Source: Magnetospirillum moscoviense
GTDB lineage: Bacteria; Pseudomonadota; Alphaproteobacteria; Rhodospirillales; Magnetospirillaceae
NCBI RefSeq assembly: GCF_001650635.1
Contig: NZ_LWQU01000130.1
Location: 124,001-188,000, forward strand
Length of the DNA: 64,000 nt
Direction: 5' to 3'
The translations under genes were made by a program, and so were the position numbers. Below the pieces are notes generated by a model, which saw only the letters and a list, made by a program, of their open reading frames with translations, searched no databases and was not told where the DNA came from. Shown in pieces: positions 11,755-57,046 of this stretch. How positions within the stretch are numbered: the first letter of the stretch is position 1; each line of letters starts with the position of its first letter.

Positions 11755-12627
11755 TCAGACCTTCGGGCCCTGCCGACGACGAGCCAGGCCAAGGCCGGCA
11801 AGGCCAAGGGCCAGAAGCGCCAAAGAGCCCGGCTCGGGCACATCGACCAAGTGGCCGATCAGACGAAAGCCACCGCCGGAGACGGATTCATAGCCGCCGC
11901 CATAGCCGCCCACACACCCCGAGCCGTCATTGATGGCAACGCGATTGCCGTCGGCCATGGTGACTGCGCCGCTGGTCGCGTTGATCCCGGCCAACGCCCT
12001 GCCGCAGGCGATCTGCGCGAACGGAGCAAGCGTAATGCTGGTGTTGGCAAGGATATTTCCCAAAAACAGCGTGCTGTCGCCCAGCGTCGCCGAACTCCCG
12101 ACTTGCCAATACACGCCGTCGGCGGGATCACCATTGATCAGCGAGACCACCGATGACGACGCCGTCGTCAGCGTGCTGCCAATCTCGAACAGGAACACCG
12201 AATTGCTGACACCCTGAGAATCAAGGGTCAACACCCCGGTCAACTGCGCCGACGTGGCAAATTTGTAGACGCCGGGATAAAGAGTCAGCCCGCCCAGATC
12301 CACCCCTGTCAAAACCTGAGTCGGCAGCTGAAGGGCCAGGAAATTATATGCGACCAGGGCGTCGGCCTGGGCGAGTTGCGACACAGTCGTGCTGGACAAT
12401 GCGCCGCCGGTGATGGTGGCGGGGGGAAATCCGGTAACGGAATTGGTGGGGGCTGCCCCGACGTTGCCGTCGATGGTGGTGGCTCCGGAACTGGTGACCC
12501 CGCCGCCGCCCAGGACGGCAAAGGTGCTTGCGGTGTCGCTCAGAAGAAGCGAGGCCGAGGCGGGTGAATAACAGGCGACAGCCAATGTCAGGCCAATCGT
12601 CGATGAAATGAGATTTCTGGTTTTCAC
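11755..12627 (-). CDS. PEP-CTERM protein with DUF3494 (ice-binding-like) domain
   Basis: 290 residues: signal peptide (hydrophobic core ending SPASAS), then one DUF3494 beta-solenoid-type domain (TIDGNVG, LYPGVYKF, FLFEIGSTL, GRALAGINATSGAVTM), then a C-terminal sorting signal. The signal is VPEPG, a hydrophobic helix and RRRQ. It should be exported, processed by the exosortase encoded at 42082-43629 and displayed or released with the EPS. DUF3494 proteins include ice-binding proteins and adhesins; antifreeze activity is not implied. The start is GTG 12627, supported by a strong GAGGAG 8 nt upstream; longer ATG frames have none. A sigma-54 promoter lies at 12709-12724. Confidence 0.9.
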   Translation of the reverse strand: MKTRNLISSTIGLTLAVACYSPASASLLLSDTASTFAVLGGGGVTSSGATTIDGNVGAAPTNSVTGFPPATITGGALSSTTVSQLAQADALVAYNFLALQLPTQVLTGVDLGGLTLYPGVYKFATSAQLTGVLTLDSQGVSNSVFLFEIGSTLTTASSSVVSLINGDPADGVYWQVGSSATLGDSTLFLGNILANTSITLAPFAQIACGRALAGINATSGAVTMADGNRVAINDGSGCVGGYGGGYESVSGGGFRLIGHLVDVPEPGSLALLALGLAGLGLARRRQGPKV

Positions 12628-12708: not shown

Positions 12709-12724
12709 AGCAATAAACGGGCCA
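12709..12724 (-). promoter_or_regulatory. Sigma-54 (-24/-12) promoter of the PEP-CTERM/DUF3494 gene
   Basis: On the minus strand TGGCCC-N5-TTGCT gives the invariant GG and GC with a 10-nt gap. It is close to the consensus TGGCAC-N5-TTGCW. The leader to GTG 12627 would be about 70 nt. The activator is probably PrsR (25915-27285). Confidence 0.7.
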
Positions 12725-12851
12725 ACCTCTGAATAGCGCGGAACGGCTGGCATGTTGCGGTCGCACATTATGGTTCCTGTAAAGCCAGCCTTTCAGTCTA
12801 CCCAAGGACTTCAAACGCCTTCCTATGCGCAAGTAAGTATCCGACGCGGGT

Positions 12852-12897
12852 TAAGTGTTTTCCGATGATGATGCCACCAGGCGGAGCACAATAAGAT
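12852..12897 (+). promoter_or_regulatory. Predicted activator-dependent promoter for the epimerase
   Basis: TAAGTGTTTTCCGA (12852-12865), two mismatches from the family consensus, is followed after 26 nt by TAAGAT (12892-12897). The leader to ATG 12979 would be about 75 nt. Confidence 0.4.
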
Positions 12898-12978
12898 ATG
12901 CAGGCAAGCTCGGATGCCGGACCTTCCGCCGATCCAAGTCTGTTGATATTATGGCAATATGTCCGGGGTCTTGACGAC

Positions 12979-13965
12979 ATGTCGATATACCTGATCACCG
13001 GAGGCGCCGGTTTTATTGGCAGCCATCTTGCGGAATGGCTCTTGAACGAGGGCCATGCGGTACGAATTCTCGATGATCTCTCCACCGGACGACGAGAAAA
13101 TGTGCCGGACGGCGCCCGTCTGGTCATCGGTGACGTCGCCGATCCGAACGCCGCCATGGCGGCCATGGTCGGTACGGCCGGCTGCTTTCACCTGGCGGCG
13201 ATCGCCTCGGTCCCAAAGAGCAACGAGGACTGGCTGGGCACGCATCGCACCAACCTGAGCGGAACCATCGCGATCCTGAACGCCGCACGCCGATGCGGGC
13301 GGATTCCGGTGGTTTACGCGTCGTCGGCGGCGGTGTATGGCGACAACCCCACCATGCCCCTGGACGAAGCGGCCCGCACCCTGCCGCTCAGCGCCTATGG
13401 CGCCGACAAGTTGGGGTGCGAGTTGCACGCCCGGATCGGCACCCTGGTCCACGGCATTCCCTCGACCGGATTTCGCTTCTTCAACGTCTATGGCCCCCGC
13501 CAGGACCCCCATTCACCCTATTCGGGGGTCATATCGATCTTCGCCAACCGCCTGCTGGCGGGAAGTCCGGTCACCGTCTTCGGTGACGGCCTGCAGACCC
13601 GCGACTTCATCTATGTGGGCGACGTGGTCGATCATCTGGTCGCCGCCATGCGGCACCCGCCGCCAACCGCCAGGATCTTCAACGCCTGCACCGGCAGACA
13701 AACCACCCTGCTTCACCTGATCGAGATCTTGGGCGGATTGATCCATGTCACGCCGCGAATCGACTTCGCCGCCGCCCATTCCAGCGACATCCGCCATTCC
13801 CTGGGGTCGCCCGACCTTTGCGTGCGGGAACTGGGCGTCCGCGCCGCGACCGGCCTGCCACGGGGGCTCGAGGCCACCTTGGACTCTCTGCGCGGCCTGC
13901 CGGCCGGCGGGATTGTGGAATTCCCACACCGTGTTCACCAAAGCAGGCTGGGCCGATTCATTTAG
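12979..13965 (+). CDS. NAD-dependent sugar epimerase/dehydratase
   Basis: A 328-residue extended short-chain dehydrogenase. The NAD-binding GGAGFIG lies at residues 8-14, SSAAVYG in the middle, and the catalytic Tyr140-xxx-Lys144 pair in SAYGADKLG. NVYGPRQDP and GDGLQTRDFIYVGD are typical of UDP-sugar 4-epimerases (GalE/WbpP-like). It likely supplies a nucleotide sugar for the EPS. ATG 12979 begins exactly at the Rossmann fold; the upstream in-frame ATG 12898 would add a non-conserved tail and overlaps the predicted -10 box. Substrate not determinable. Confidence 0.85.
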   Translation: MSIYLITGGAGFIGSHLAEWLLNEGHAVRILDDLSTGRRENVPDGARLVIGDVADPNAAMAAMVGTAGCFHLAAIASVPKSNEDWLGTHRTNLSGTIAILNAARRCGRIPVVYASSAAVYGDNPTMPLDEAARTLPLSAYGADKLGCELHARIGTLVHGIPSTGFRFFNVYGPRQDPHSPYSGVISIFANRLLAGSPVTVFGDGLQTRDFIYVGDVVDHLVAAMRHPPPTARIFNACTGRQTTLLHLIEILGGLIHVTPRIDFAAAHSSDIRHSLGSPDLCVRELGVRAATGLPRGLEATLDSLRGLPAGGIVEFPHRVHQSRLGRFI

Positions 13966-13992
13966 GCTTCGCTGATCATCGCTGCTATACCT

Positions 13993-14016
13993 CGCTGACC
14001 GGCCTGACCGTCAGCG
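13993..14016 (+). terminator. 7-bp hairpin after the epimerase gene
   Basis: The arms CGCTGAC and GTCAGCG flank a 10-nt loop. It lies just before a G-run that could serve as ribosome site for the 38-aa gene, so it may be a weak terminator or a leader structure. Confidence 0.35.
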
Positions 14017-14027
14017 GGGGATCATCC

Positions 14028-14144
14028 ATGACCGAAAGCAGCACCCCGTCACCCAAGGGCTTCGCCCTGATCGTCGTCTTGTCGGTCCAGGCCCTGGTCT
14101 GGCTGGCCATCGGAATTGGCATCGGCTACTGGCTGGCGCCATAA
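14028..14144 (+). CDS. Small single-pass membrane protein (38 aa)
   Basis: A very short frame with a G-rich ribosome site (GGGGG, about 8 nt upstream). The product is a polar N-terminus followed by one hydrophobic helix (ALIVVLSVQALVWLAIGIG) ending GYWLAP. The size and topology are those of small membrane proteins that associate with larger envelope complexes. It follows the epimerase by 62 bp. No homologue recognised; a second small membrane protein is encoded at 36722-36886. Confidence 0.45.
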   Translation: MTESSTPSPKGFALIVVLSVQALVWLAIGIGIGYWLAP

Positions 14145-14253
14145 CCCGTCGCCGCCCCGGCCGGCCGTCGCCGAAGCGCGCTGAAGGCACGCCGCCGCCG
14201 GGCCGAGCGATGTCGCCAAACTTTACACTGCAGCACGAGATGAATATTCTTTA

Positions 14254-14270
14254 GCGTTGTTTTTCAACGC
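14254..14270 (+). promoter_or_regulatory. Inverted repeat upstream of the second PEP-CTERM promoter
   Basis: GCGTTG, a T5 spacer, then CAACGC: a perfect 6-bp dyad ending 10 bp before the -24 element of the sigma-54 promoter. It could bind a regulator, or form a small hairpin in the plus transcript. It is close to the promoter for a sigma-54 enhancer site. Confidence 0.35.
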
Positions 14271-14279
14271 CTTAGCCAT

Positions 14280-14296
14280 GTGGCACGATTCCTGCG
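14280..14296 (+). promoter_or_regulatory. Sigma-54 (-24/-12) promoter of the second PEP-CTERM gene
   Basis: GTGGCACGATTCCTGCG contains TGGCAC-N5-CTGC with the invariant GG (14282-14283) and GC (14294-14295) 10 nt apart. That is one mismatch from the core consensus. It lies 65 bp upstream of ATG 14361. Confidence 0.75.
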
Positions 14297-14360: not shown

Positions 14361-15122
14361 ATGGCATTCATCAACTCTCTCAAGTATGCCGGCGTCATCA
14401 GTGTCGGCATCCTGGCCATCGCCCTTGGCACCCCTGCCCAGGCCGGTGAAATCACCATCGACTTCACCGCCGCGTCGCCGATCGGCAGCGGCATCACCTA
14501 CGACCTTACCTTCACGCTGAACACCGCCGACTACATCAACGCCCACCACAACCAGGCGGCCCCCACCATCGCCAATCCCAGCGCCGTCATCAATTACGGG
14601 GCGTACACCATCAATTCCATCACCGGCTCCCTGACCAAGATCCTGGTGGCCGACAACAGCGTGCTGGCCTCGGGCACGTTGAGCACCCTGCAGCCGGTCG
14701 GCACCGTCGTCGGCGCCAACAATCCCACCGACAACCTGATGTATCCGCTGCTTGCCAGCGGCAGCTCGCTGATCCTGGACGGCGACGGCAATGCCCAGAC
14801 CGACACCGGTCCGGCCATGGACGTCAACGCCTTCGCCTTCGATGATCAGGGCTTCGCCTTCCTGATCGGTTCGCAGTTGGTGCAATTGACGGCGGACCTG
14901 GCCAATACCGGCCTCTACGTCCTGACCACCCCGACCGTCACCGTCCTGCTGCGTCAGGGCAGCACCAACTTCCAGTTCGAATCCTTCAGCAACGTCCGCC
15001 AGGTGCCGGCCCCCGCTCCGCTCGCCCTGCTGGGTGTCGGCCTGCTCGGCCTGGGCATGATCCGCCGCCGCAAGAACGCGGATACCGGCGTCAGCAGCCC
15101 GCAGGACGCGGTCACTGCTTAA
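14361..15122 (+). CDS. PEP-CTERM-like surface protein (VPAPAP variant)
   Basis: 253 residues: signal peptide (SLKYAGVISVGILAIALG, cut near AQAG), a beta-rich middle low in Cys and charge, then a sorting signal. The signal is VPAPAP, a hydrophobic helix and RRRKN. The tail runs 16 residues past the arginines, longer than usual. It should be handled by exosortase XrtA. ATG 14361 has AAAGGA about 10 nt upstream; the in-frame ATG 14280 overlaps the sigma-54 promoter and is rejected. It is followed by the small double-glycine peptide gene. The middle domain is not recognised. Confidence 0.85.
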   Translation: MAFINSLKYAGVISVGILAIALGTPAQAGEITIDFTAASPIGSGITYDLTFTLNTADYINAHHNQAAPTIANPSAVINYGAYTINSITGSLTKILVADNSVLASGTLSTLQPVGTVVGANNPTDNLMYPLLASGSSLILDGDGNAQTDTGPAMDVNAFAFDDQGFAFLIGSQLVQLTADLANTGLYVLTTPTVTVLLRQGSTNFQFESFSNVRQVPAPAPLALLGVGLLGLGMIRRRKNADTGVSSPQDAVTA

Positions 15123-15252: not shown

Positions 15253-15411
15253 ATGTCCACCAATCAAACCAGCAACGACAAGAATAAGCCTGATCCGATG
15301 AAGGACAAGAAGGCCGACGAGATCAAGAAGCCCCATGAACTGACCCCGGAAGAGCTTAAAAAGGTCTCGGGCGGCAAGCTGGGTGCTCCGATCTACAAGA
15401 AAAAGCCCTGA
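15253..15411 (+). CDS. Double-glycine leader peptide, probable cargo of the NHLM exporter
   Basis: A 52-residue peptide. A Lys/Asp-rich N-terminus precedes the leader motif ELTPEELKKVSGG (residues 29-41), a classic GG cleavage site for C39 peptidases. The remaining core KLGAPIYKKKP is 11 residues, basic, and lacks Cys, Ser and Thr, so no lanthionine or thiazole chemistry is possible. ATG 15253 has GGAGAAAACT directly upstream; ATG 15241 is the alternative. The adaptor and the C39-peptidase ABC exporter follow immediately. Whether the product is a bacteriocin, a signal or something else is unknown. Confidence 0.75.
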   Translation: MSTNQTSNDKNKPDPMKDKKADEIKKPHELTPEELKKVSGGKLGAPIYKKKP

Positions 15412-15527: not shown

Positions 15528-16793
15528 ATGGCCCGACAGATCTTCCGCCAGACATCGCTGGATCACCTTTCGACACCGGAGCAACTGGATCAGGTCATGC
15601 ACGTCACCTCATCGGCGGCGTGGGTGACCATCGCCACCATGTTCGTGGTGGTGGCGGCCGGGCTGGTCTGGAGTTTCATCGGCACCGTGCCGATCAAGGT
15701 CACCGGGCGGGGAATTCTGATCAGCCCCGGCGGCGTGCTGGACGTCATTTCATCGAGCCAGGGTCGCATCACCCGCTTTCTGGTCGTCCCCGGCGACTGG
15801 GTGGAAAGCGGCACCGTGGTCGCCCATGTCGCGCAGCCAGACATCGAAAGCCAGTTGGACGTCGCCAGGGCCGAGGCCTTCGAGGCGCAAAACCAATTGC
15901 AGCGGATCATGGAGTTCCAGCAGCGCGAACGGACGGCCCAAGGCGGCTTCCTGACCCAGAAGCGTGCGGTCCTGGCCCAGGAACTGAGCTTCCTCGAGGA
16001 CCGGCTGAAATGGCTGCGCGAACGCGAGACCGTCGATTCCGAGCTGACCGCCAAGGGCTTGATCGCCCGCAACCGGGTCATCGACACCAAGATCGAAATC
16101 AACACCACCAGGGAAAAGGCGGCCCGGGCGGCCAACGAAATCAAACGTCTCGACCTTGAGGAAAGCAACCTCGGCATGCTCAAGGAGAAGGAGCAGATCG
16201 AGCAGAAGCTGAAGATCGCCGGTATCCAAAGAAAGGAAGAAGCCACCCACGACGCGCTGAAGCGCAAGGGTGAACTGGTCAGCCCCTATTCCGGTCGGAT
16301 CGTCGAATTCAAGGTCAATGCCGGTGAAGTGATCGAAAGCGGGCGCGCCTTGTTCTCGATGCTGCCGCAAGCCCAAAGCGGCCGCCGCCGCACCGATCTG
16401 ATGGCCGAACTCTATGTCCGCCCCGAAGACGGCAAGAAGGTCCAGCCGGGGATGCATGTGCAGATCTCGCCATCCACCGTGAAGCGCGAGGAATACGGCT
16501 TCATGGAAGGCACGGTGACCAGCGTTGCCACCATTCCATCGACCGAGGAGGGCATGCTGCGCAAGCTGAAGAACAAGCAATTGGCCCAGCAATTGTCCGG
16601 CGGCGGGGCCCCGTTCGAGGTGGCGGTCGAACTCTCGCTCGATCCCGGCTCGCGCAATGGCTTCAAATGGTCGTCATCGGCTGGACCCGAGACGGAAATC
16701 AACCCCGGGACCCTGGCCGAAGGCACCATTACCGTCCGCCGCGTCCACCTGATCGGTTTGTTGATTCCCTTGTTCGAACGCCTGTTCGAATGA
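15528..16793 (+). CDS. HlyD-family adaptor of an NHLM-type peptide exporter
   Basis: 421 residues. A short cytoplasmic N-terminus is followed by one membrane helix (about 30-52), then a biotinyl-lipoyl-like half (VTGRGILISPGG), a long coiled coil (about 105-235) and a second lipoyl half (VSPYSGRIVEFKVNAGEVIESG) with a beta-barrel region. This is the periplasmic membrane-fusion protein that joins the ABC exporter to the outer part of the pathway. It overlaps the downstream exporter gene by ATGA. The start at ATG 15528 has a weak ribosome site. Fits the NHLM bacteriocin-system secretion family. Confidence 0.85.
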   Translation: MARQIFRQTSLDHLSTPEQLDQVMHVTSSAAWVTIATMFVVVAAGLVWSFIGTVPIKVTGRGILISPGGVLDVISSSQGRITRFLVVPGDWVESGTVVAHVAQPDIESQLDVARAEAFEAQNQLQRIMEFQQRERTAQGGFLTQKRAVLAQELSFLEDRLKWLRERETVDSELTAKGLIARNRVIDTKIEINTTREKAARAANEIKRLDLEESNLGMLKEKEQIEQKLKIAGIQRKEEATHDALKRKGELVSPYSGRIVEFKVNAGEVIESGRALFSMLPQAQSGRRRTDLMAELYVRPEDGKKVQPGMHVQISPSTVKREEYGFMEGTVTSVATIPSTEEGMLRKLKNKQLAQQLSGGGAPFEVAVELSLDPGSRNGFKWSSSAGPETEINPGTLAEGTITVRRVHLIGLLIPLFERLFE

Positions 16794-18976
16794 CCCGGCC
16801 CTCGCCCATTTGGCCGGCCACCGGAAACCGGATCCGCGTCCCCACCATCTTGCAAATGGAAGCGGTGGAATGCGGAGCCGCCTGCCTGGCGATGATCCTT
16901 GGCCATTACGGCCGCCACATACCGTTGGAAGTCCTGCGCTACGAGTGCGGCGTGTCCCGCGACGGGTCCTCGGCCAGCGGCATGGTCAAGGCGGCCAGAT
17001 CCGAAGGGCTCGTCGCCACGGGGTTCACCTGCGAACCCGAGGCGCTGGGCACCATCCCCCGGCCCTTCGTGGTCTTTTGGAACTTCAACCACTTCATCGT
17101 CGTCGAAGGGTTCTCGCGCCACGGGGTCTATGTCAACGATCCCGCCAGCGGCCCGCGTGCGGTCCCGTGGGCCGAATTCGACACCGCCTTCACCGGCATT
17201 GTCCTGACCTTCGCCCCCGGCCCATCCTTCACCCGGTGGGGACGGCGACGCAGCGTCTGGGACGGGTTGATCCGGCGCCTGCACGACACCGGCACAGCGG
17301 TCGCCTTCGTCGCCCTGGTCAGCCTGGGACTGGTGGTTCCGGGCCTGCTGGTGCCGGCCCTTTCCCGCATCTTCGTCGATTACATCCTGATCCAGGGTTT
17401 TTCCGACTGGCTGACGCCGCTTTTGATCGGCATGGGTGCGGCAGCGCTTTTGCGGGCGTTCCTGACCTGGTTGCGCCAGCACACCCTGCTGCGCCTGCAG
17501 ACAAAGCTGGTCCTGCGCGGGGCGTCCGCCCTGTTGTGGCAGGTGCTGCGCCTGCCGATGCGCTTCTTCTCGCAGCGTTATGCCGGCGACATCGCCTCGC
17601 GCGTCATGCTGAACGACCGCGTCTCGGAGCTTCTGGCCGGCGATCTGGCCGTCACCGCCCTGAGCCTGGTCACCATGGCGGTCTACGGCGCCATCATGGC
17701 CGAATTCGACCTGGTCCTGACCGGCCTGGCCGTCATCTTCGCCGCCCTGAACCTGGCAGCCTTCGCGCTGGTGGCCCGCCGCCTTTCGGACGCCTCGCTG
17801 AAACTGCTGCAAGATGAAGGAAAGCTGATCGGCGTCGCCATGCAGGGACTGCAGATCATCGAAAGCATCAAGGCCAGCGGAGCCGAGGATTTGTTGTTCA
17901 GCCGCTGGGCCGGCCACCTGGCCAAGGTGGTCAATACCGAACAGGACCTGTCCCGGACCCGCGTGCTGCTGGGGATGTCCCCCATCCTTCTCTCGATGCT
18001 GGGCTCGGCCGCTATCCTGATCGTGGGTGGCTTCCGGGTGATGGACGGCACCATCAGCATCGGAACCCTGGTGGCCTTCCAGGCGCTGATGTTCAGCTTC
18101 TCGGCCCCCCTGGTCGATCTGGTCCATCTGGGGGGCCAGGTTCACGAAGCGGCCGCCGACATCACCCGCCTGGACGACGTTCTGGTCCACGAGATCGATG
18201 CCGAGTTCCGCCCCGCCGCCTTAGAGGGCGTTCCACCGCGCGAGCCAGGCCGGCTGAAGCTGGCGGGCCGAGTGCAGCTTCGCGGCGTCACCTTCGGCTT
18301 CAGTCCCACCGCGCCGCCTTTGATCAAGGACTTCTCGCTGGACCTGGAACCGGGAACCCGGGTGGCCTTGGTCGGCGCCTCGGGCAGCGGCAAATCGACC
18401 ATCGGCCGATTGATCGCCGGCCTGTACCAGCCGTGGGGCGGCACGATCATGTTCGACGGCATCGCGGCCGCCACCATCGACCGCGCGGCTTTGCGGGAAT
18501 CGCTGGCCTTTGTCGATCAGGACGTGATGCTTTTTCGCGGCACCGTCTCGGACAATATCAGCCTGTGGGACCCGACCATGCCCGACGAGCGCATCATCCG
18601 GGCCGGCCGCGACGCCCAGATCCACGACGAGATCAACGCCCGCCCGGAAGGATACGACTACCAGCTGCGCGAGGGCGGCCAGAATTTCAGCGGCGGCCAA
18701 CGCCAGCGCATCGAAATCGCCCGCGCCCTGGCCACCCATCCGGCGGTGCTGATCCTGGACGAGGCCACCAGCGCCATGGACAGCGCGGTCGAGCGCCAAG
18801 TCATCGACAGCATTCGCTGGCGCGGCTGCGCCTGCCTGATCATCGCCCATCGGCTGTCCACCATCCGCGACTGCGACGAAATCATCGTCCTCGACCGGGG
18901 CAGCGTGCAGGAACGGGGACGCCACGACGCCCTGATCGCCGCCGACGGTCTTTACCGGCAATTGGTCGAGAGTTGA
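16790..18976 (+). CDS. NHLM-type ABC exporter with C39 peptidase domain
   Basis: 728 residues: C39 peptidase domain with Cys28 (AVECGAACL), His101 (NFNHFIVVEGF) and Asp117 (YVNDPASG), all intact; a six-helix exporter domain (about 160-460); and an ATPase with Walker A GASGSGKST (529-537), signature FSGGQRQR and Walker B VLILDEATSAMD. It should cleave the GG leader and export the core peptide. ATG 16790 overlaps the adaptor stop as ATGA, so I prefer it over the frame-extended start at 16667. Confidence 0.92.
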   Translation: MTRPSPIWPATGNRIRVPTILQMEAVECGAACLAMILGHYGRHIPLEVLRYECGVSRDGSSASGMVKAARSEGLVATGFTCEPEALGTIPRPFVVFWNFNHFIVVEGFSRHGVYVNDPASGPRAVPWAEFDTAFTGIVLTFAPGPSFTRWGRRRSVWDGLIRRLHDTGTAVAFVALVSLGLVVPGLLVPALSRIFVDYILIQGFSDWLTPLLIGMGAAALLRAFLTWLRQHTLLRLQTKLVLRGASALLWQVLRLPMRFFSQRYAGDIASRVMLNDRVSELLAGDLAVTALSLVTMAVYGAIMAEFDLVLTGLAVIFAALNLAAFALVARRLSDASLKLLQDEGKLIGVAMQGLQIIESIKASGAEDLLFSRWAGHLAKVVNTEQDLSRTRVLLGMSPILLSMLGSAAILIVGGFRVMDGTISIGTLVAFQALMFSFSAPLVDLVHLGGQVHEAAADITRLDDVLVHEIDAEFRPAALEGVPPREPGRLKLAGRVQLRGVTFGFSPTAPPLIKDFSLDLEPGTRVALVGASGSGKSTIGRLIAGLYQPWGGTIMFDGIAAATIDRAALRESLAFVDQDVMLFRGTVSDNISLWDPTMPDERIIRAGRDAQIHDEINARPEGYDYQLREGGQNFSGGQRQRIEIARALATHPAVLILDEATSAMDSAVERQVIDSIRWRGCACLIIAHRLSTIRDCDEIIVLDRGSVQERGRHDALIAADGLYRQLVES

Positions 18977-18979
18977 GCC

Positions 18980-21922
18980 ATGCCCGCGCGCAGCCAGACC
19001 CCGGTCCTAGACCCCGTCATCCGCGACCGGATCGAGAGCGAAGGCGAAACCCTGTTGCTGGAATCCGGTGCGGCCCACGTCTTCGCCGACGCGTCCAGCG
19101 TCTGGTTCATCCAGCAGGGCACCATCGAACTGTTCGCCATCCAACGTCGGGACGGAATGCAAACCGGGCCGCGTGAGCATCTGTGCACGCTGTCGGCCGG
19201 CGGCCTGATCTGGGGGATCAGCCAGGATCCCGATCACGACGGCATCCACCTGCTGGCCCTGGCCAACGGCGATTGCCGTCTGTCTGGCATCGCCGTCGCC
19301 TCGCTGAAACTCTGGGGCCGCCGGAACACCTTGACCCTGCCGCTGGCCGATTGCATCGATTCGTGGATCGAGGGCCTGTCGTCCGGGGTCGCCAAGAGCA
19401 TTACGCCCCGCAGCCAGCCGCGGCGGTCCATCGCCGCCGGCCAGAATCTGTGTGTGGCCGAAGCCGATCGAATCGTCAGCCACCGCGGGGTGACCTGGGC
19501 GCAATTGGGGCCGGGAATCGCCTTCTATATCGATATCCAGGCGGTCGGGAGCGAGGACGGGACGATTCTGGTTCCGCTGACACCGCAGGGTTGGCTGCGC
19601 GCAGGTGGTGTTCGCGCGCTCAAGGGAATGGCGACCACCGATATCTTGCACGCCGACCGCATATCGCTGCGGATGAACGCCTTTCACCAATGGGTCCTTC
19701 ATAATCTGGCATTCGGTTTTCGCGATGTCGCGTCGGTCGAGAATGCCCGCCTCACGCGGCGAGCCCTTCAACTGACCAGCGACACCAAGAGCACCTTCTT
19801 CGGCTTCGCCAAGCTCATGGATCCAGCGATCCGGCGCGGCGCGGCGCCGGTCGGGGGTGATTGCCTGTTCGAATGCTGCCGAGCCATCGGCGCGGCATCG
19901 GACATCACCTTCACCCGCCCGCCAATGGCCAAGTGGCGCCGGATCGAAGACCCGGCAATGTCGGCCGAAGACATCGCCGCCGCCTCGCAGGTCCGCATGC
20001 GCTCGGTCAGCCTGCCGCCGGGTTGGTGGCGGCAAGATGGCGGGCCGCTGCTCGCCTTTCGCAAGGATGACGGGGCGCCGGTGGCCTTGCTGCACAAATC
20101 GGCCGCGGTCACCATCATGCTCGATCCGGCCACCGCCACCGAAGTGGTGGTGACCGAAGCGGTGGCGCAAACCTTGGCGCCGCTCGCCTGGTCCTTCTAT
20201 GCCGGGCTGCCCGATCACCCCGCTGACCTGCTCGACCTGATGCGGCTTTGCTTCAAGCCGTGCAAGGCCGATCTGCTGGCCATCGCCATGGCCGGCGCCT
20301 TAGGCGGACTGGTCGCCACCGTCATCCCACTGGCGACCGGCTATGTGTTCGATTCCGTCATTCCCGGACACCACAGCATGGAGATGCTGCAGGTCGGCGC
20401 CGCCATCATCACCGCCGCATTCGCCGCCGCAGCCTTTGAGTTCAGCCGCAGCATCGCCCAGTTGCGCGTCGAGGGACGCATCGCCGGAATTGCCCAGGCC
20501 GCCATCATGGATCGCCTGCTGCGTCTGCCCGCCGTGTTCTTCGGCGAATATTCCGCCGGCGATCTGGCCCAAAGGACCATGGTCATCGAGATCGCCCGCA
20601 AGAGCCTGACCGGTATCGTGACGGCCTCGCTGGTTTCGGGGGCGTTTTCCGTCTTCAGTTTCGGGTTGTTGATCGGCTATTCCCCGATCGCCGCGCTGGT
20701 GACCGGATCGCTGATCCTGATCCTGGCCGCCGTGACGCTGGCCGCCGGATTGCGGCTGATGACCGTCACCGCCCGGGTGCAGGACGTCTCGGGGCGGATC
20801 AGCGGCCTGCTGCTCGAGATCATCACCGGCATCACCAAGCTCAGGATCGCCGGCGCCGAGGAACGCGCCTTCAACAATTGGGGCGACGATTTCAGCAAGC
20901 TCCAGGCCGGCGAGTTGCACTCGAAGCGCATTCACAATCGCTTCCTGGTGTTCTGGAGCGCCTTCGAGATCGTCGGGCCAGGATGCATTTTCGCCACCAT
21001 CGGCTTGATCAGCCAGGCGGGGATGAGCACCGGCACGTTCCTGGCCTTCGTTGCGGCATTCTCCGGCCTGATGGCGTCGCTGTTCGCCCTGTCCAAGTCG
21101 GTGATCACGGTCTTTTCGGTGGTACCGCTCTATCGCCGCGCGGCGCCCATCATGCAAACAGTCCCGGAAACCACCGCCACCAAGGCCGATCCCGGCCGCC
21201 TGAGCGGCGCCCTGGAACTCAACACCGTGTCCTTCCGTTATGCCCCCAACGCCCCGTTCGCCCTTCATGGTCTGTCCCTGACGGTCAGGCCCGGCGAATT
21301 GATCGCCGTGGTCGGGCCGTCCGGCTCGGGAAAATCGACCTTGATGCGGTTGCTGCTGGGCATCGGCCAGCCGGAATCCGGTGCGGTCTATTACGACGGC
21401 CGGGACCTGCGCGGCCTGAACGTGCGATCGGTGCGCCGCCAGATCGGCGTGGTCATGCAAAACGGTCGGCTGATGCCCGGATCCCTTTACGAGAACATCA
21501 AGGGCGCGACGCGCGCCGACATCGACGAGTGCTGGGATATCGCCGCCCGGGTGGGGTTGGCGGACGACATCATGGCCATGCCCATGGGGATGCACACCTT
21601 GCTGACCGATGGAACCAGTACGCTTTCCGGAGGCCAAGTCCAGCGCATGCTGATCGCCCGCGCGCTGGTCGGCAAACCGGCCCTGTTGCTGCTGGATGAA
21701 GCGACCAGCGCCCTGGACAACAAGACCCAGGCGGTGGTGATGCGAAACCTGGATCACCTGTCGGTGACCCGGATCGTCATCGCCCACCGTCTGAGTACCG
21801 TCATCAATGCCGACCGCATCTACGTCCTCACGGATGGTCGCATCGTGGAATCCGGCTCGTATCAACAGCTGATGGACAATAATGGGGTCTTTTCGACTTT
21901 CGCCTATCGCCAGAACTTGTGA
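18980..21922 (+). CDS. Second NHLM-type ABC exporter subunit
   Basis: 980 residues, starting 3 bp after the first exporter. About 1-400 is a large N-terminal region without the C39 triad, in the position of the cyclic-nucleotide-binding-like region of NHLM second subunits. An exporter membrane domain (about 430-720) follows, then an ATPase with Walker A GPSGSGKST (779-787), signature LSGGQVQR, Walker B LLLLDEATSALD and a late IAHRLST switch His. It probably pairs with the C39 subunit as a heterodimer. The operon ends at a hairpin 28 bp further on. Confidence 0.9.
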   Translation: MPARSQTPVLDPVIRDRIESEGETLLLESGAAHVFADASSVWFIQQGTIELFAIQRRDGMQTGPREHLCTLSAGGLIWGISQDPDHDGIHLLALANGDCRLSGIAVASLKLWGRRNTLTLPLADCIDSWIEGLSSGVAKSITPRSQPRRSIAAGQNLCVAEADRIVSHRGVTWAQLGPGIAFYIDIQAVGSEDGTILVPLTPQGWLRAGGVRALKGMATTDILHADRISLRMNAFHQWVLHNLAFGFRDVASVENARLTRRALQLTSDTKSTFFGFAKLMDPAIRRGAAPVGGDCLFECCRAIGAASDITFTRPPMAKWRRIEDPAMSAEDIAAASQVRMRSVSLPPGWWRQDGGPLLAFRKDDGAPVALLHKSAAVTIMLDPATATEVVVTEAVAQTLAPLAWSFYAGLPDHPADLLDLMRLCFKPCKADLLAIAMAGALGGLVATVIPLATGYVFDSVIPGHHSMEMLQVGAAIITAAFAAAAFEFSRSIAQLRVEGRIAGIAQAAIMDRLLRLPAVFFGEYSAGDLAQRTMVIEIARKSLTGIVTASLVSGAFSVFSFGLLIGYSPIAALVTGSLILILAAVTLAAGLRLMTVTARVQDVSGRISGLLLEIITGITKLRIAGAEERAFNNWGDDFSKLQAGELHSKRIHNRFLVFWSAFEIVGPGCIFATIGLISQAGMSTGTFLAFVAAFSGLMASLFALSKSVITVFSVVPLYRRAAPIMQTVPETTATKADPGRLSGALELNTVSFRYAPNAPFALHGLSLTVRPGELIAVVGPSGSGKSTLMRLLLGIGQPESGAVYYDGRDLRGLNVRSVRRQIGVVMQNGRLMPGSLYENIKGATRADIDECWDIAARVGLADDIMAMPMGMHTLLTDGTSTLSGGQVQRMLIARALVGKPALLLLDEATSALDNKTQAVVMRNLDHLSVTRIVIAHRLSTVINADRIYVLTDGRIVESGSYQQLMDNNGVFSTFAYRQNL

Positions 21923-22083: not shown

Positions 22084-22264
22084 GCACAAATCAATTTTTC
22101 TCAGTTACTGCACTTACCTTTACTTCGCTCTACTTAACACACAAGCAAAATATTGCCGCATATATGAAACTATTCTTTTGCGCTTTTTCTTATTGGCGTC
22201 ATGTATCAGCATAACCACGTCATTATTTCCACTTGCTCTAGGCAAGTGGTTAGTGGAGGCAGTC

Positions 22265-23698
22265 ATGTTCCGCCTATTCAAGCACTACGTTAACGGCCCA
22301 TCCATTCTCCTGTCAGCAGTAGAAACATTCTTTCTGTTTGGGCTTGCGATCATAACATACGACATATTCAGGTCGCTTAATTTAAACATCAATCCGAATA
22401 TTGGTGGAGCCGGAGCAACGTATATGGCCCTGCTGACAACAACCAGCATGGCATGCGTCGGGATGTACAACAGACAGCATTTCATGAATTACTCAGATAT
22501 CATCTCACGAATCACCGTCATCATACCGGCGATACTTATTATTATTGTTTCAGCACTCTTAATTCGCGACTATGTGACAGATGTCGAGCGCATCAACGGC
22601 GACTACATGTTTTTCTTTGTTGTGCTCAGTGCATTCTCGCTGTCATTGCTCGCGTGGCGCGCCATCTTCATCAAGGTGATCGACCGCACCGCCACCTTCA
22701 AACGGCGAGTTCTGATCCTGGGAACCGGCAGCCGCGCCGCCAACATCGAGAAGCTCAGCCAGGAACACCGTCACAAGACCATCAGCATCATCGGCTATCT
22801 CCGCCTGGGTTCGCGGCCGGTTCATCCGCATTCGGATGCGGGCGGACGGCGCAATGGCGAACGGCGCGCCGATTTCTGGGTCGCACCGGCCGAACTCGCC
22901 CAGTTCTGCCAGGCCAACGACGTCGAGGAAGTGGTGGTGGCCAGCACCGAACGCCGGGGCATGCTGCCGGTCAGCGAGTTGCTGGCCTGCAAGTTCCAAG
23001 GCACCCAGATCACCGAATATGCATCGTTCTGGGAACGCGAAAGCGGCCAGGTCGATCCCGACGAGATCAGCCCCAGCTGGATGCTGTTCTCGGACAGCTT
23101 CGGACTGGGCATCGTGCGCCGATTCGTCAAACGTGGTTTCGACATCGTGGTCAGCAGCCTGGTGCTGGTTCTGACCCTGCCGATCACCATCCCCACCGCA
23201 TTGCTGATCCTGCTGGAAAGCCGTGGACCGCTGTTCTATCGGCAAGAGCGGGTCGGGCTGCACGGCAAGCCGTTCATGGTCTTGAAGTTCCGTAGCATGG
23301 GCACCGACGCCGAAAAGAACGGCCCGGTCTGGGCGGCCAAGAACGATCCGCGGGTCACCCGGGTCGGGGCCTTCATCCGCAAGGTCAGAATCGACGAGAT
23401 CCCGCAGGTCATCAACGTGCTCTGCGGCGACATGTCCTTCGTCGGGCCCCGCCCCGAGCGGCCGGTGTTCGTCGAGGCCTTGGCGCGCAAGATCCCCTAT
23501 TACAACGAACGCCACGTCATCAAGCCCGGCATCACCGGTTGGGCACAGATCAACTATCCGTACGGCGCCACGGAACACGACGCCAAGATGAAGCTGGCAT
23601 ACGACCTGTACAGCATCAAGAACGGCGGACTTTTCCTGGACATCATCATCATGATGCAAACCGTCAAGGCCGTTATTTGGCACGACGGCGCCCGTTAG
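22265..23698 (+). CDS. XrtA-system priming sugar transferase (undecaprenyl-phosphate type)
   Basis: 477 residues with about four N-terminal membrane helices, a CoA-binding-like Rossmann region (VLILGTGSRAANIEKL), and a C-terminal bacterial sugar transferase domain. The latter has a fifth helix, LFYRQERVG, FMVLKFRSM, KVRIDEIPQVINVL and GDMSFVGPRPE. It should load the first sugar phosphate onto undecaprenyl phosphate. ATG 22265 has GGAGG 5 nt upstream and begins with MFRLFKHYV, typical of the family, so the longer frame from 22178 is rejected. A hairpin separates it from prsK. Confidence 0.9.
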   Translation: MFRLFKHYVNGPSILLSAVETFFLFGLAIITYDIFRSLNLNINPNIGGAGATYMALLTTTSMACVGMYNRQHFMNYSDIISRITVIIPAILIIIVSALLIRDYVTDVERINGDYMFFFVVLSAFSLSLLAWRAIFIKVIDRTATFKRRVLILGTGSRAANIEKLSQEHRHKTISIIGYLRLGSRPVHPHSDAGGRRNGERRADFWVAPAELAQFCQANDVEEVVVASTERRGMLPVSELLACKFQGTQITEYASFWERESGQVDPDEISPSWMLFSDSFGLGIVRRFVKRGFDIVVSSLVLVLTLPITIPTALLILLESRGPLFYRQERVGLHGKPFMVLKFRSMGTDAEKNGPVWAAKNDPRVTRVGAFIRKVRIDEIPQVINVLCGDMSFVGPRPERPVFVEALARKIPYYNERHVIKPGITGWAQINYPYGATEHDAKMKLAYDLYSIKNGGLFLDIIIMMQTVKAVIWHDGAR

Positions 23699-23736: not shown

Positions 23737-23803
23737 GACAAGCCCGCGCGGACCCGGCCACGGGCCGTACAGACAAATCGAGATGCATGACGGAGGAATT
23801 CAT

Positions 23804-25918
23804 TTGAGCGACATGTTCGATGCCGCCAGCTACGGAATTTGCGCCATTGCCTATGGTGGCCTGGCGGCCATCGCCTTGAACTCCGAGACCGAAGGGATGA
23901 GGCGGCGGCACTTCGTGGTCGCCGGACTGGCCACCGCCCTGTGGGCCGGACTGATCGCCGCAACCTGGCTGATGGCGATTCCTGCGGCGCTGCTCAATCT
24001 GAGCGAGGTGCTGCGCGTCGGCAGCTGGCTTTATTTCCTGCTGACCTTGTGGGGGCGCCTGGACGACAGCCGCGGCGCCACCGTCCGGCGCATCCTGGTC
24101 ACCCGCGCCTTTGTTCCCATTGTCGTGGTGATCGGTCTCGTCGCCCTTCCCACGTCTCTCGACATCGGCGCGTTGCACGAGCAGGCATTGCCGATCAAGG
24201 CCCTGGTCAACATCGTCTTGCCGGTAATCGGTCTGCTGCTGATCGAGAACCTGCTGCGGATCAGCGGCACGACCGGCCGGTGGGCCATCAAGCATCTGGG
24301 CCTGGGCCTGGGCGCGGCGCTGTCGTTCGATTTCTTCATCTATTCCGACGCCCTGGTGCAAGGCGCCGTCGGCGAGGTGTTCGTCACCGCCCGCGCCCTG
24401 GTCGCCATCCTGATCGTCCCCTTGCTGTGGGTCTCGTTCCATCGGCTGCGGACCTGGAAAAGGGATGCCGAAATCCGCCTGATCGCCTCGCCCAAGGCCG
24501 CTTTCTACACCATGGCGCTGGTGGCCAGCGGTTCGTACCTGCTGGTGATGGCCGGCGTCGCCTATTACATCCGCATCGTCGGCGGCAAATGGGGCGCGCC
24601 GTTGCAGATCGCCTTCATGGTGGCGGCGCTGTTGATCATGCTGGTCAGCATCGCCTCGTCGCGATTGAAGTCCCACGCCAAGATCTTCGTTCTCAAGAAC
24701 TTCTTCGCCTATCGCTACGATTACCGCGAGGAATGGCTGCATTTCCTGCAGATCATGTCGGCACAGCAGCCGTCGGCCCTGGCCCCTCGCCTGGTCCGCG
24801 CCATGGCCGACCTGATGGATTGCCCGGCCAGTGCGCTGTGGGTCCTGCTCGGCCCCGAGCAGTGCTTCTTCTCGGCCGCCGCCTGGAACTTGCCGCCGCC
24901 CCACCCGCCGGTTCGCTCGGATTGCGCCATGATCGGCTTCTTTCGCCGCACCGGCCGGGTCATCGACATGGATGAATACCGCAAGGCCCCTGCACGATAC
25001 GAGGGAACCATCCTTCCCGACTGGATCGTCGCCCGCCCGGCGGTGTGGCTGGTGGTGCCCTTGGTCCATCGCGGCGACGTTCTGGGCTTCGTGGTTCTCG
25101 ATCAGGCCCGGGCACCTCGCCGCCTGGACTGGGAGGATCGCGACCTCTTGGATACCACCGCCATTCAGGCCGCCAGCTACCTGGCCGAGGAACTGACCAC
25201 CGAAGCCTTGCGCGCGGCGCACCGCCTCGAGGATTTCAATCGGCAATTCTCTTTCGTCGTGCACGACATCAAGAACGTGGTCGGACAGATGTCGCTGCTG
25301 CTGGGAAATGCCAAGACCCACGGCGACAACCCCGATTTCCAGAAGGACATGCTGGAAACCGTCGGCAATTCCGTCAGCCGGATGCGCGCCATGCTGGAAC
25401 AGTTGGCGATCCAGCGCCAACCGCCGGCGCCGCCGCAAGTTCTGGACCTGGCGACCATTCTTGACGGCGTCGCCGCCCATTGGGGCAAAAGTGCCGCCAA
25501 CCTGACCTTTGCCCCCCCGGCACAGCCGGTCTTCGCCCCGGTCGATCCGACGAAACTGGTCTCGGCGCTCGACTTGCTGATCGACAACGCCCTGACGGCG
25601 GTCGCCCTCTCGGGGTCGGTGGAACTGCGCCTTTGCACCGCTCCCGGCCACGCCCTGATCGAGGTTGCCGACGACGGTCCCGGCATGGATGCCGCCTTCA
25701 TCGCCACCGAGCTGTTCCGCCCGCTGGCCTCGACCAAACCCGCGGGCTACGGGATCGGCGCCTTCCAGACCCGCCATCTGGTGGGCGAAATGGGCGGCCG
25801 CCTGGAAGTCGATTCCATCCCCGATCACGGCACCACCATGCGGATCGTTTTGCCCCTGGCCGCCGCCCCGTCAGCACTTCCCGATGAAACCTCTGTCTTG
25901 AAGGCACGACACGGATGA
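23804..25918 (+). CDS. prsK: XrtA-system sensor histidine kinase PrsK
   Basis: About 704 residues. Six or more N-terminal membrane helices (residues 5-290) come first, then a GAF-like region, then a kinase core: H-box FVVHDIKNVVGQ with His487, N-box LIDNALTAV, and G-box DDGPGM. PrsK is the sensor paired with the sigma-54 activator PrsR in XrtA/PEP-CTERM systems. The start is TTG 23804, because GGAGG lies 7 nt upstream. ATG 23783 lies upstream of that ribosome site and ATG 23813 is too far from it. The stop overlaps the prsR start as ATGA. Confidence 0.9.
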   Translation: MSDMFDAASYGICAIAYGGLAAIALNSETEGMRRRHFVVAGLATALWAGLIAATWLMAIPAALLNLSEVLRVGSWLYFLLTLWGRLDDSRGATVRRILVTRAFVPIVVVIGLVALPTSLDIGALHEQALPIKALVNIVLPVIGLLLIENLLRISGTTGRWAIKHLGLGLGAALSFDFFIYSDALVQGAVGEVFVTARALVAILIVPLLWVSFHRLRTWKRDAEIRLIASPKAAFYTMALVASGSYLLVMAGVAYYIRIVGGKWGAPLQIAFMVAALLIMLVSIASSRLKSHAKIFVLKNFFAYRYDYREEWLHFLQIMSAQQPSALAPRLVRAMADLMDCPASALWVLLGPEQCFFSAAAWNLPPPHPPVRSDCAMIGFFRRTGRVIDMDEYRKAPARYEGTILPDWIVARPAVWLVVPLVHRGDVLGFVVLDQARAPRRLDWEDRDLLDTTAIQAASYLAEELTTEALRAAHRLEDFNRQFSFVVHDIKNVVGQMSLLLGNAKTHGDNPDFQKDMLETVGNSVSRMRAMLEQLAIQRQPPAPPQVLDLATILDGVAAHWGKSAANLTFAPPAQPVFAPVDPTKLVSALDLLIDNALTAVALSGSVELRLCTAPGHALIEVADDGPGMDAAFIATELFRPLASTKPAGYGIGAFQTRHLVGEMGGRLEVDSIPDHGTTMRIVLPLAAAPSALPDETSVLKARHG

Positions 25919-27285
25919 ACGACGACAAACGCAAAATCCTGGTCATCGAGGATGATCTGGGCCTTCGCACCCAGTTAAAATGGGCGCTGGCCAACTTCGA
26001 GGTCCTGGTCGCCGAAGACGGCCCCAAGGCCCTGCACCAGTTCGAACGCAAGCGCCCCCCGGTGGTCATCTTGGATCTGGGGCTGCCCCCCGATCCCAAT
26101 GGCGCCAGCGAAGGGCTTGCCACCCTCGAGAAGCTGCTGAAACTAGCGCCCCTGACCAAGGTCATCGTCGCCAGCGGCAACGACGAGCGGGGCAACGCCT
26201 TGAAGGCGATCGAGCTCGGCGCTTATGACTTCTATCCGAAGCCGGCCGACCTTGATGTCATGCGGCTGATCATCGACCGCGCCCTGACCTTGCACGATCT
26301 GGAAGAGGAAAACGAGCAACTGGCGCTGGGACGAACCTCGCCCCTGGCCGGGTTGGTGGCGTCGTCGCCGGAAATGCTGGGCCTGTGCCGCAGCGCCGAA
26401 CGGGTCGCCACCGCCAATATCGCCGTGCTGATCACCGGAGAAAGCGGCACCGGCAAGGAAATCCTGGCCCGGGCGGTGCACGATCTCAGTGCCCGCGCCC
26501 ACCAACGCTTCGTTGCCATCAATTGCGCGGCCATTCCCGACAATCTGCTGGAAAGCGAATTGTTCGGCCACGAAAAAGGGGCCTTCACCGGCGCGGTCAA
26601 ACAGACCATCGGCAAGGTCGAGCAGGCCCATCATGGCACCTTGTTCCTGGACGAGATCGGCGACATGCCCCTGTCGCTGCAGGCCAAGCTGCTGCGCTTC
26701 CTGCAAAACCGCACCATCGAGAGAATCGGCGGCCGCAAGGAGATCGAAGTCGATGTCCGCGTCCTGTCGGCCACCAATCGCGACCTTGCCGCGATGATGA
26801 CCGACGGATCGTTCCGCGAGGATCTTTATTATCGTCTGAACGAAGTCAGCATGCACATGCCGCCGCTGCGCGACCGCCCCGGCGACGCCATCCTTCTGGC
26901 CCGCTACTTCCGGGCCAAATATGCCAAGGACTTCCAGCGCGCCCCCAAGACCTTCACCACCGATGCCCTGGCGGCCATCGCCCGTTACCGATGGCCCGGC
27001 AATGTCCGCGAACTGGAAAATCGGGTCAAGCGGGCGATGCTGATGGCCGATGGCAAGGCGATCTCGAGCGCCGACCTCGAGCTATGCGACGATACCGACA
27101 TCCTGCAGATGCCGACCCTGCGCCAGATCCGCGCGCAGGCCGAGGCCGAAGCGGTCCTCCGCGCCCTGGCCATCACCGACAACAATGTCTCGGATGCGTC
27201 GCAACTTCTGGGCGTGTCGCGCCCGACACTCTACGAAATCATGCACGCCGCCAACATGCCCATCAATAGGAGGGACCGGTCATGA
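25915..27285 (+). CDS. prsR: Sigma-54-dependent response regulator PrsR
   Basis: 456 residues: receiver domain with the acidic pair at 13-14 and phosphoacceptor Asp54 (VVILDLGL); AAA+ domain with Walker A GESGTGKE (175-182) and the sigma-54 contact loop GAFTGA (222-227), both intact; and a Fis-type helix-turn-helix (NVSDASQLLGVSRPTLYEIM). It should activate sigma-54 promoters. Two such promoters lie in this window, both in front of PEP-CTERM genes (12709-12724 and 14280-14296). Overlaps prsK and prsT by ATGA at both ends, so the three are translationally coupled. Confidence 0.93.
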   Translation: MNDDKRKILVIEDDLGLRTQLKWALANFEVLVAEDGPKALHQFERKRPPVVILDLGLPPDPNGASEGLATLEKLLKLAPLTKVIVASGNDERGNALKAIELGAYDFYPKPADLDVMRLIIDRALTLHDLEEENEQLALGRTSPLAGLVASSPEMLGLCRSAERVATANIAVLITGESGTGKEILARAVHDLSARAHQRFVAINCAAIPDNLLESELFGHEKGAFTGAVKQTIGKVEQAHHGTLFLDEIGDMPLSLQAKLLRFLQNRTIERIGGRKEIEVDVRVLSATNRDLAAMMTDGSFREDLYYRLNEVSMHMPPLRDRPGDAILLARYFRAKYAKDFQRAPKTFTTDALAAIARYRWPGNVRELENRVKRAMLMADGKAISSADLELCDDTDILQMPTLRQIRAQAEAEAVLRALAITDNNVSDASQLLGVSRPTLYEIMHAANMPINRRDRS

Positions 27286-43629: not shown

Positions 43630-43666
43630 GCAGACCACACCAAGCACTGACAAGGTTTTGTTCATC

Positions 43667-43687
43667 TGAGTACATATACTCATATGG
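43667..43687. promoter_or_regulatory. TGAGTA-CATA-TACTCA dyad between xrtA and a divergent glycosyltransferase
   Basis: A perfect 6-bp dyad (43667-43682) in the 120-bp divergent region. The 12-mer ATACTCATATGG (43676-43687) recurs at 36726-36737. It is a candidate operator shared by xrtA and the glycosyltransferase. Confidence 0.4.
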
Positions 43688-43750
43688 GCGTTAGTAGTGT
43701 GCGTACATTTTTTTATATACAAACAATCCATTGATGTAACAATTTTCACC

Positions 43751-51951: not shown

Positions 51952-51970
51952 CCACAGGGAAACCACCGAC

Positions 51971-56326: not shown

Positions 56327-57046
56327 TCATGCACACAGCGGGCCACACAAATACAGCATTGGAAAATATGATTTTTCTTCCCGGGGACCGTTCGAGATGT
56401 CAAATCTGCCGACACCTTTCGCCGTGGGCGGCGCCTCGAATACGTGCTGGCGCCGTCGTAAAGGCGAGTGGGAGCGGTAGTTGGCCGATAGGACAGAAGC
56501 GACCACCCTGGACTTTCGCCAAGTTCGCGCCAGACCGGGAAAGCGCCGGGCGGTGTAGGTGATGGACGGGAAGGACTTGTTGCCGGCGTCCAGCATGCGG
56601 GCGCGCCCGGTGACCCTCATGGTGTCGGCTTCGACATCGGTCAGGGTCATGGTGATGGGCGGGTCCATATGGGGGCCGTTGAGATCGGTGGAGAGATAGG
56701 GTCGCCAAGTGATCTCGATCACCTGCTGGCTGATGGCGGCTCCCTCAAGGGCGTCGGTGATGTCGCTGCCGACATTATCGAGAGTGACGGTGATTTCCGG
56801 CACCGGAGCGGTATCCACCGGTGGCGGCGAGAACTCGAAGGCCAGTGCGGCGAAGGTCACCTGCTTGCCGCCATCGCGGGGAGCACCGGCCTCCAGCCGG
56901 GCGGTGAGATCGGCATGGTCGCGGACCACCCGGATCGGCTCGGTGAAGCTGGGATGCCAGATTTCCAGCGTATCGAGAATCACCGTCCCTGCCGGGGCTG
57001 ATGCGAACGCCTCCTTCAGCGCCTGGCTGAGAGCCGGATCAGGCAT
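56327..57046 (-). pseudogene. Phage-tail DUF1833 gene with abnormal 3' end
   Basis: About residues 1-170 (from MPDPALSQALKEAF to RRFPGLAR) fit the DUF1833 family of phage tail-region proteins, including TVILDTLEIWHPSF and ITWRPYLSTDLNGP. The following 65 residues look unlike any tail protein and are low in structure, suggesting that a deletion fused the gene to other DNA near 56530. ATG 57046 overlaps the previous gene's stop by 8 bp. Prophage remnant. Confidence 0.6.

Follow-up and report, generated by a model that had tools for sequence, protein, structure and literature searches.

Many proteobacterial PEP-CTERM genes (99 of 167) are preceded by a two-part upstream element: a 17-nt motif that ends in TTTACA and is proposed to be bound by PrsR is followed, after 32-92 nt, by a -24/-12 sigma-54 motif; the same report calls the stimulus of PrsK obscure (Haft et al. 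2006, PMC1569441). In Aquincola the PEP-CTERM gene pepA is RpoN1-dependent, with mapped TGGCAC and CTGCTT motifs, and EPS synthesis is reported to be independent of RpoN1 (Xia et al. 2023, PMC9850573). In Zoogloea, PrsK/PrsR and RpoN control PEP-CTERM genes and leave EPS synthesis unaffected: prsK and prsR mutants lose floc formation and keep EPS synthesis, and overexpression of PepA circumvents the defect (2022, as told in PMC9012009). In Rubrivivax gelatinosus a suppressor screen on EmbRS yielded hits in an EPS locus of the exosortase type that has PrsK/PrsR-like genes and, separately, in a GGDEF gene, bdcA; its authors suggest that the matrix is controlled by c-di-GMP (PMC3684757). An EPS locus and a GGDEF gene feature in the case described below as well; in the accessible text of that report control of the GGDEF gene by PrsR is not proposed, and in that of the Aquincola and Zoogloea accounts no link between PrsR and c-di-GMP is seen (PMC3684757, PMC9850573, PMC9012009).

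A search of the open-licence PMC literature likewise found no report of a link between PrsR and a diguanylate cyclase. To our knowledge, the full output of PrsR has not been mapped so far. What is not new, then, is the element (2006), an RpoN1-dependent PEP-CTERM gene (2023) and an EPS-independent control of flocs by PrsK/PrsR (2022). A sequence-only reading of the locus analysed here had proposed that matrix proteins, rather than EPS synthesis genes, are the targets of PrsR; because of the Aquincola and Zoogloea reports, this model is already in print for other bacteria. The new part is an element ahead of a diguanylate cyclase gene, which would couple the expression of matrix proteins to c-di-GMP.

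Judging by the elements found, how well they are conserved and how they rank across the genome, we put at roughly 80% the probability that PrsK/PrsR and sigma-54 would here switch on matrix proteins together with c-di-GMP synthesis, through three promoters in the EPS locus. Under this reading, PrsR, once phosphorylated by PrsK, would bind a TGTCG-N6-TTTACA box placed 52-53 nt upstream of the -24 element, and its GAFTGA loop would contact the sigma-54 polymerase; three promoters would thereby be opened, namely those of an ice-binding-like PEP-CTERM protein (gene 1), of a PepA-like PEP-CTERM protein (gene 2) and of a PAS-GGDEF diguanylate cyclase. Transcription from gene 2 may continue into a leader-peptide gene and an NHLP-type exporter. 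The EPS enzyme genes would not be direct targets; c-di-GMP could nevertheless reach them. If PrsR does drive the cyclase as well, then in these bacteria the floc or matrix switch would be tied to c-di-GMP--that is, one sensor may turn on both the matrix (glue) proteins and the biofilm signal--and this could explain a coordinated supply of matrix protein and polysaccharide activity without EPS genes as PrsR targets. Three defined candidate promoters result, which are suited to simple reporter work.

The window, that is, the whole 64-kb stretch of DNA that was analysed, contains XrtA, EPS genes and two substrates together and therefore a PEP-CTERM/exosortase A system (Table 1). PrsK and PrsR, which the sequence-only reading had already named, both exceed the cut-offs of their family models; the GAFTGA motif that it had noted in PrsR is present; and PrsT occurs beside them. 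The C-terminal part of XrtA resembles EpsI (TIGR02914, 36.9 bits, under the cut-off of 42.8). Gene 1 is clearly a PEP-CTERM protein. In gene 2 the sorting motif is of the PAP variant, which passes the NCBIfam cut-off (TIGR02595, 18.1 bits; cut-off 16) and falls slightly under that of Pfam (PF07589, 19.4; cut-off 20.7), and the similarity to PepA is weak (NF033554, 47; cut-off 80). The locus shares with the published description the 17-nt TTTACA motif, the sigma-54 motif 2 and the proximity of PEP-CTERM genes to PrsK/PrsR/PrsT and EPS genes; it differs in that all spacers in the window are 52-53 nt long and in that one element serves a diguanylate cyclase (compared with the accessible parts of PMC1569441). 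Motif 2, with its GG/GC core, lies 81 nt (gene 1, GTG at 12627), 64 nt (gene 2) and 61 nt (cyclase) from the start codon, within the published 23-221 nt.

Table 1. Coordinates of genes and putative regulatory sequences in the 64-kb window
Feature	Position	Strand	Evidence
Gene 1: PEP-CTERM protein with ice-binding-like domain	11755..12627	-	PF11999 156.5 bits; PF07589 32.5 bits
Sigma-54 site of gene 1, TTGGCCCGTTTATTGCT	12709..12725	-	kept in G073 orthologue
PrsR-box-like sequence of gene 1	12778..12794	-	right half CTTTACA intact, left half diverged (GAAAG); element score 21.8
PrsR box (motif 1) of gene 2, TGTCGCCAAACTTTACA	14211..14227	+	element score 38.9, matrix without window training
Sigma-54 site (motif 2) of gene 2, GTGGCACGATTCCTGCG	14280..14296	+	TTTACA-to-TGG distance 53 nt
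Gene 2: PEP-CTERM protein (PAP variant), weak similarity to PepA (floc protein)	14361..15122	+	TIGR02595, NF033554, PF07589
52-aa protein, double-glycine-type leader, ...LTPEELKKVSGG-KLGAPIYKKKP	15253..15411	+	no family match
NHLP-type export HlyD	15528..16793	+	TIGR03794 328.5 bits, cut-off 156.2
NHLP-type export ABC transporter 1 with peptidase	16667..18976	+	TIGR03796 1016.6 bits, cut-off 853.3; upstream-most ORF start, overlaps HlyD
NHLP-type export ABC transporter 2	18980..21922	+	TIGR03797 827 bits, cut-off 709.4
EpsB-type sugar transferase	22178..23698	+	TIGR03013 506 bits
PrsK histidine kinase	23783..25918	+	TIGR02916 589 bits, cut-off 300
PrsR sigma-54 activator: receiver, AAA+ with GAFTGA, Fis-type helix-turn-helix	25915..27285	+	TIGR02915 660 bits, cut-off 503
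PrsT TPR protein	27282..30068	+	TIGR02917 592 bits, cut-off 312
Exosortase A (XrtA)	42082..43752	-	TIGR03109 237 bits, cut-off 208
FemAB-like XrtA-system protein	51110..53014	+	TIGR03019
PAS-GGDEF diguanylate cyclase (predicted)	54784..56268	-	PF00990 160.4 bits; GGDEF and RxxD I-site (RAGD) in alignment
Sigma-54 site of diguanylate cyclase, GTGGCCCGCTGTGTGCA	56330..56346	-	spacer 52
PrsR box 5' of diguanylate cyclase, TGTCGGCAGATTTGACA	56398..56414	-	left half exact, TTGACA in place of TTTACA; element score 27.7

The sigma-54 consensus is TGGCACG-N4-TTGCW. The two sites on which the sequence-only reading had relied, TGGCCCGTTTATTGCT (minus strand, 12724-12709) and TGGCACGATTCCTGCG (plus strand, 14281-14296), are indeed present, each with GG-N10-GC, and agree with 11 (gene 1) and 10 (gene 2) of its 12 fixed positions. 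By itself GG-N10-GC is uninformative, and it occurs 1365 times in the window. Sites with this core and at least 10 consensus matches are far fewer (five in the window, these two among them); genome-wide, TGGCACGN5TGC occurs 17 times and the reversed pattern 12 times. The frequency of the bare core and the closeness of 17 to its control of 12 speak for chance matches in GC-rich sequence; a sigma-54 site alone is weak evidence, and the consensus was dropped as sole evidence. What makes both sites convincing, and is the decisive addition, is TTTACA: it occurs only four times in the window, both strands counted, and two of the four stand exactly 53 nt 5' of TGG (14222-14227, plus; 12783-12778, minus). 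Together with conservation in relatives and the genome-wide ranking given below, this spacing leaves the chance reading scarcely credible.

The box of gene 2 is the sole exact TGTCGN6TTTACA in the 4.16-Mb genome. Gene 1 has an orthologue (77% identical) in a genome of another genus, G073, which retains CTGAAAGG..GGCTTTACAGG plus TGGCCCGCTTATTGCT. That genes 1 and 2 carry the published, putatively PrsR- and sigma-54-responsive two-part element is thereby supported, although in gene 1 motif 1 is only half present. The claim that both PEP-CTERM genes are so equipped stands for the locus; it does not extend to the whole genome, the third PEP-CTERM gene of which, on contig C173, proved on inspection to lack the element.

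A third element, TGTCGGCAGATTTGACA-N51-GTGGCCCGCTGTGTGCA (56414-56330, minus strand), precedes the PAS-GGDEF gene, for which synthesis of c-di-GMP is predicted from a GGDEF domain with an intact active-site motif. Motif 1 alone was discarded as evidence, as its sites with up to two mismatches are barely more numerous genome-wide than in the control (387 versus 354). The pairing of motif 1 with sigma-54 sites was checked for the 26 near-exact sites of the whole genome (up to one mismatch; a further 361 have two mismatches), and a good sigma-54 match lies 30-95 nt downstream of just two of them: those of gene 2 (15.1 bits) and the cyclase gene (9.5 bits), the other 24 reaching at most 4.4. In 794,109 unique bases of this genome and its relatives (around PEP-CTERM, PrsK, NHLP and other matches), TTTACA forms 23 pairs with good sigma-54 sites, which ranks it first among its 60 letter permutations (next 9, median 2.5).

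For a scoring matrix, 21 pairs from beyond the window were available; five whose left half deviates were removed by hand, and the matrix was built from the other 16. The scores of the three window elements (Table 1) accordingly come from a matrix trained on none of them. Elements scoring at least 20 number 74, versus 4 in reversed sequence, where the two highest scores are 23.8 and 23.4, so that reversed sequence can equal the score of gene 1. A sequence-only model was also made from 21 elements, which include the three of the window, two of G073 and one of a second genome, G068. It ranks the three window elements first in the 4.16 Mb of this genome (E = 2.6e-8 for gene 2, 1.2e-6 for the cyclase and 5e-4 for gene 1; next 0.14), and in G073 it ranks the gene 2-like PEP-CTERM gene (PEP2) at 2.9e-9 and the cyclase at 3.6e-9, followed by the gene 1 orthologue at 0.17.

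An element scoring at least 20 stands ahead of 48 of 67 PEP-CTERM genes (15 of the 48 being members of the training set; 72 rows less five with cut upstream DNA) versus 8 of 836 other ORFs. The association is uneven (13 of 15 in G045, 10 of 14 in G060, 2 of 8 in G035), and it includes two of the three PEP-CTERM genes of G024, G032 and G058, where PrsK was not found; the two are those of G024 and G032, whose assemblies are 89 and 80% complete. Of the eight other ORFs, three are PEP-CTERM-like genes that the family search missed at its threshold, two encode small proteins with twin-arginine-like signals and adjoin HprK-like genes, one is the cyclase, and the two with the lowest scores, 22.5 and 23.4 (the latter ahead of an exosortase-like ORF of G002), do not stand out from the reversed control.

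This predominance of PEP-CTERM genes favours a narrower explanation, namely that PrsR acts on the two PEP-CTERM promoters alone and that the cyclase site arose by chance or is used by another sigma-54 activator. The distribution of the cyclase bears on this. Full-length orthologues were found in two of the 54 other genomes of the family that were searched (G073, 74%; G068, 71%; another genus), which makes the gene rare (3 of 55 genomes, its own included); among the family genomes with PrsK it occurs in 2 of 13, and its absence from the other 11 again suits the narrower explanation. So does G068, which has the cyclase element and in whose 99% complete assembly a search for PrsK found none. Against it, of the 26 near-exact boxes just that of the cyclase and one other have a correctly placed sigma-54 site; both orthologues keep the spacer of 52 and both motifs (scores 27.6 and 26.5, in G073 and G068, respectively; the left half of the box is weaker in G068); and G073 has PrsK, its two strong model matches being PEP2 and the cyclase. 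The narrower explanation is therefore judged improbable, and regulation of all three promoters by PrsR remains the preferred reading.

The aligned upstream DNA of the cyclase orthologues has a mean column identity of 70%, and the FemAB gene of the XrtA locus is close to the cyclase gene in each of the three genomes. Two farther relatives (56 and 50% identical, alignable from residue 73-77), in genomes without PrsK, have no element upstream. A search of genome contigs with the N-terminus of the cyclase was set aside: among the best 80 of 569 confirmed stretches it gave relatives of at most 55% identity, which had matched by way of a common LHELQVHQIELE stretch; close orthologues were not among them. 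The same best 80 of 569 served as a negative control: the 811,601 bases surrounding 79 PAS-domain relatives from other bacteria contain no element that scores 24 or more, with a minimum of 8 for motif 1 and of 7 for motif 2. Pfam revealed no PilZ receptor in 29 distinct ORFs of the window, some of which are probably spurious.

Because the cyclase element is conserved, the output of PrsR may exceed matrix proteins and could reach EPS synthesis via c-di-GMP. The matrix-protein model accordingly holds in part: genes 1 and 2 bear elements, and the EPS enzyme genes of the window bear none (at a score of at least 20, or with the model at E up to 5), but as a complete account it gives way to the third element, conserved in two orthologues.

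A further possibility is that PrsR additionally controls EPS enzyme genes directly, through weaker sites or through read-through from gene 2 into EpsB, PrsK, PrsR and PrsT, the latter amounting to positive autoregulation; this is compatible with the three-promoter explanation. The pepA gene of Aquincola has prsT on its downstream side and a putative terminator; behind gene 2, by contrast, comes a peptide-export array (compared with the available passages of PMC9850573): the order on the plus strand is gene 2, leader-peptide gene, NHLP-type HlyD, ABC1, ABC2, EpsB, PrsK, PrsR, PrsT. For direct control speak this shared strand from gene 2 to PrsT, the absence of a terminator-like site on the plus strand between gene 2 and the leader-peptide gene, an order of gene 2, NHLP genes, EpsB and PrsK that is constant in five genomes, and the borderline element by the exosortase-like ORF in G002, at reversed-control level. 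On the other hand, the 255-nt gap ahead of EpsB (22178) leaves room for a promoter of its own; the 116 nt between the peptide gene and HlyD are predicted to form a stable fold (-49.5 kcal/mol, z -2.46; 3 of 200 shuffles as good) that could attenuate transcription; the EPS enzyme genes of the window are without an element; and EPS synthesis was reported unaffected in the Zoogloea mutants (as told in PMC9012009). On balance direct control appears unlikely, though less so than a restriction of PrsR to the two PEP-CTERM promoters.

As in NHLP-type export (TIGR03794/03796/03797), HlyD, the peptidase-containing ABC1 and ABC2 all score above curated cut-offs; unlike it, the array stands in an exosortase/EPS locus, and the neighbouring leader peptide matches neither the NHLP nor the Nif11 leader precursor families. 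PrsK was found in 17 genomes (11 + 6), of which five (this one, G073, G035, G077 and G078) have an element-headed PEP2-like gene, NHLP genes, EpsB and PrsK in the same order. Nine others, all among the first eleven, were searched over the whole genome, and their PrsK contigs yielded no NHLP ABC1 (G002, G025 and G033 have one on a different contig); none was seen within 20-35 kb around PrsK in G063, G064 and G069. The leader peptide is present in this genome, G073, G077 and, by reading, G035; tblastn did not detect it in G078. This genome and G073, which represent two genera, have exactly the same predicted mature end, KLGAPIYKKKP, while the leaders differ; the peptide of G035 deviates. It is conceivable, if quite doubtful, that PrsK/PrsR would run a three-part aggregation programme, consisting of matrix proteins, c-di-GMP synthesis and the export of KLGAPIYKKKP as an extracellular signal or matrix component, perhaps with feedback on PrsK.

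Two further observations concern the placement of elements. Against the three-promoter reading, an ORF matching DUF1833 extends with its 3' end into the cyclase element. Two elements that point away from each other stand ahead of a PEP-CTERM-like gene and a gene for a receiver-domain protein in G063 and G064 (the domain being tested in G063 only), and because of this arrangement signalling genes may more widely be targets of PrsR.

PrsK occurs in only three of the 13 same-genus genomes, and in two of these three it belongs to a different type of locus, in which no NHLP gene adjoins it. This patchy distribution of the locus within the genus suggests either transfer or loss. A related genome, G068, retains the predicted PrsR/sigma-54 element of the diguanylate cyclase gene, and a search of G068 for PrsK found none; either PrsK/PrsR is absent from the assembly or the element there is served by another activator. 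In the window, the cyclase element is overlapped by the 3' tail of an ORF with a DUF1833 match, which is adjoined by AAA-domain ORFs; an inserted segment may have its border here.

Features discussed (window positions unless a fetched locus, L, is named)
Feature	Position	Remarks
ORF with DUF1833 match	56327-57199	match at residues 60-215 of 290
Cyclase element, G068	L217 10686-12303	
Divergent element pair, G063	L223 14086-15336	
Divergent element pair, G064	L224 7671-7878	
PrsR elements upstream of small proteins	L096 12785-13605; L092 11061-11157; L094 13555-13651	near PrsK in G042, G045, G060
Strong element, G045	L208 512 (G045:C150:74511)	
Leader-peptide gene	15253-15411	double-glycine-type leader; upstream of NHLP-type exporter

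In two genomes, divergent PrsR/sigma-54 elements lie upstream of a PEP-CTERM-like gene and of a 336-aa protein, respectively, the latter having a receiver domain (domain search on the G063 copy only). Other PrsR elements precede small proteins with twin-arginine-like signals, adjoined by what we take to be PqqD-like and HprK-like genes; a family search of one such protein gave no match. The L208 element, which scores strongly (39.5) and was among the 16 training elements of the scoring matrix, has no clear downstream gene. The third PEP-CTERM gene of the window's genome (L104, G000:C173:5663; 20.1 bits) was checked for a PrsR element and has none.

The predicted mature end of the leader peptide comprises 11 residues, KLGAPIYKKKP, and is the same in G073 (L218), where the leader has diverged. 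Outside the window locus, the window's own genome carries two more NHLP-type ABC1 genes (L069 on C169 and L070 on C128).
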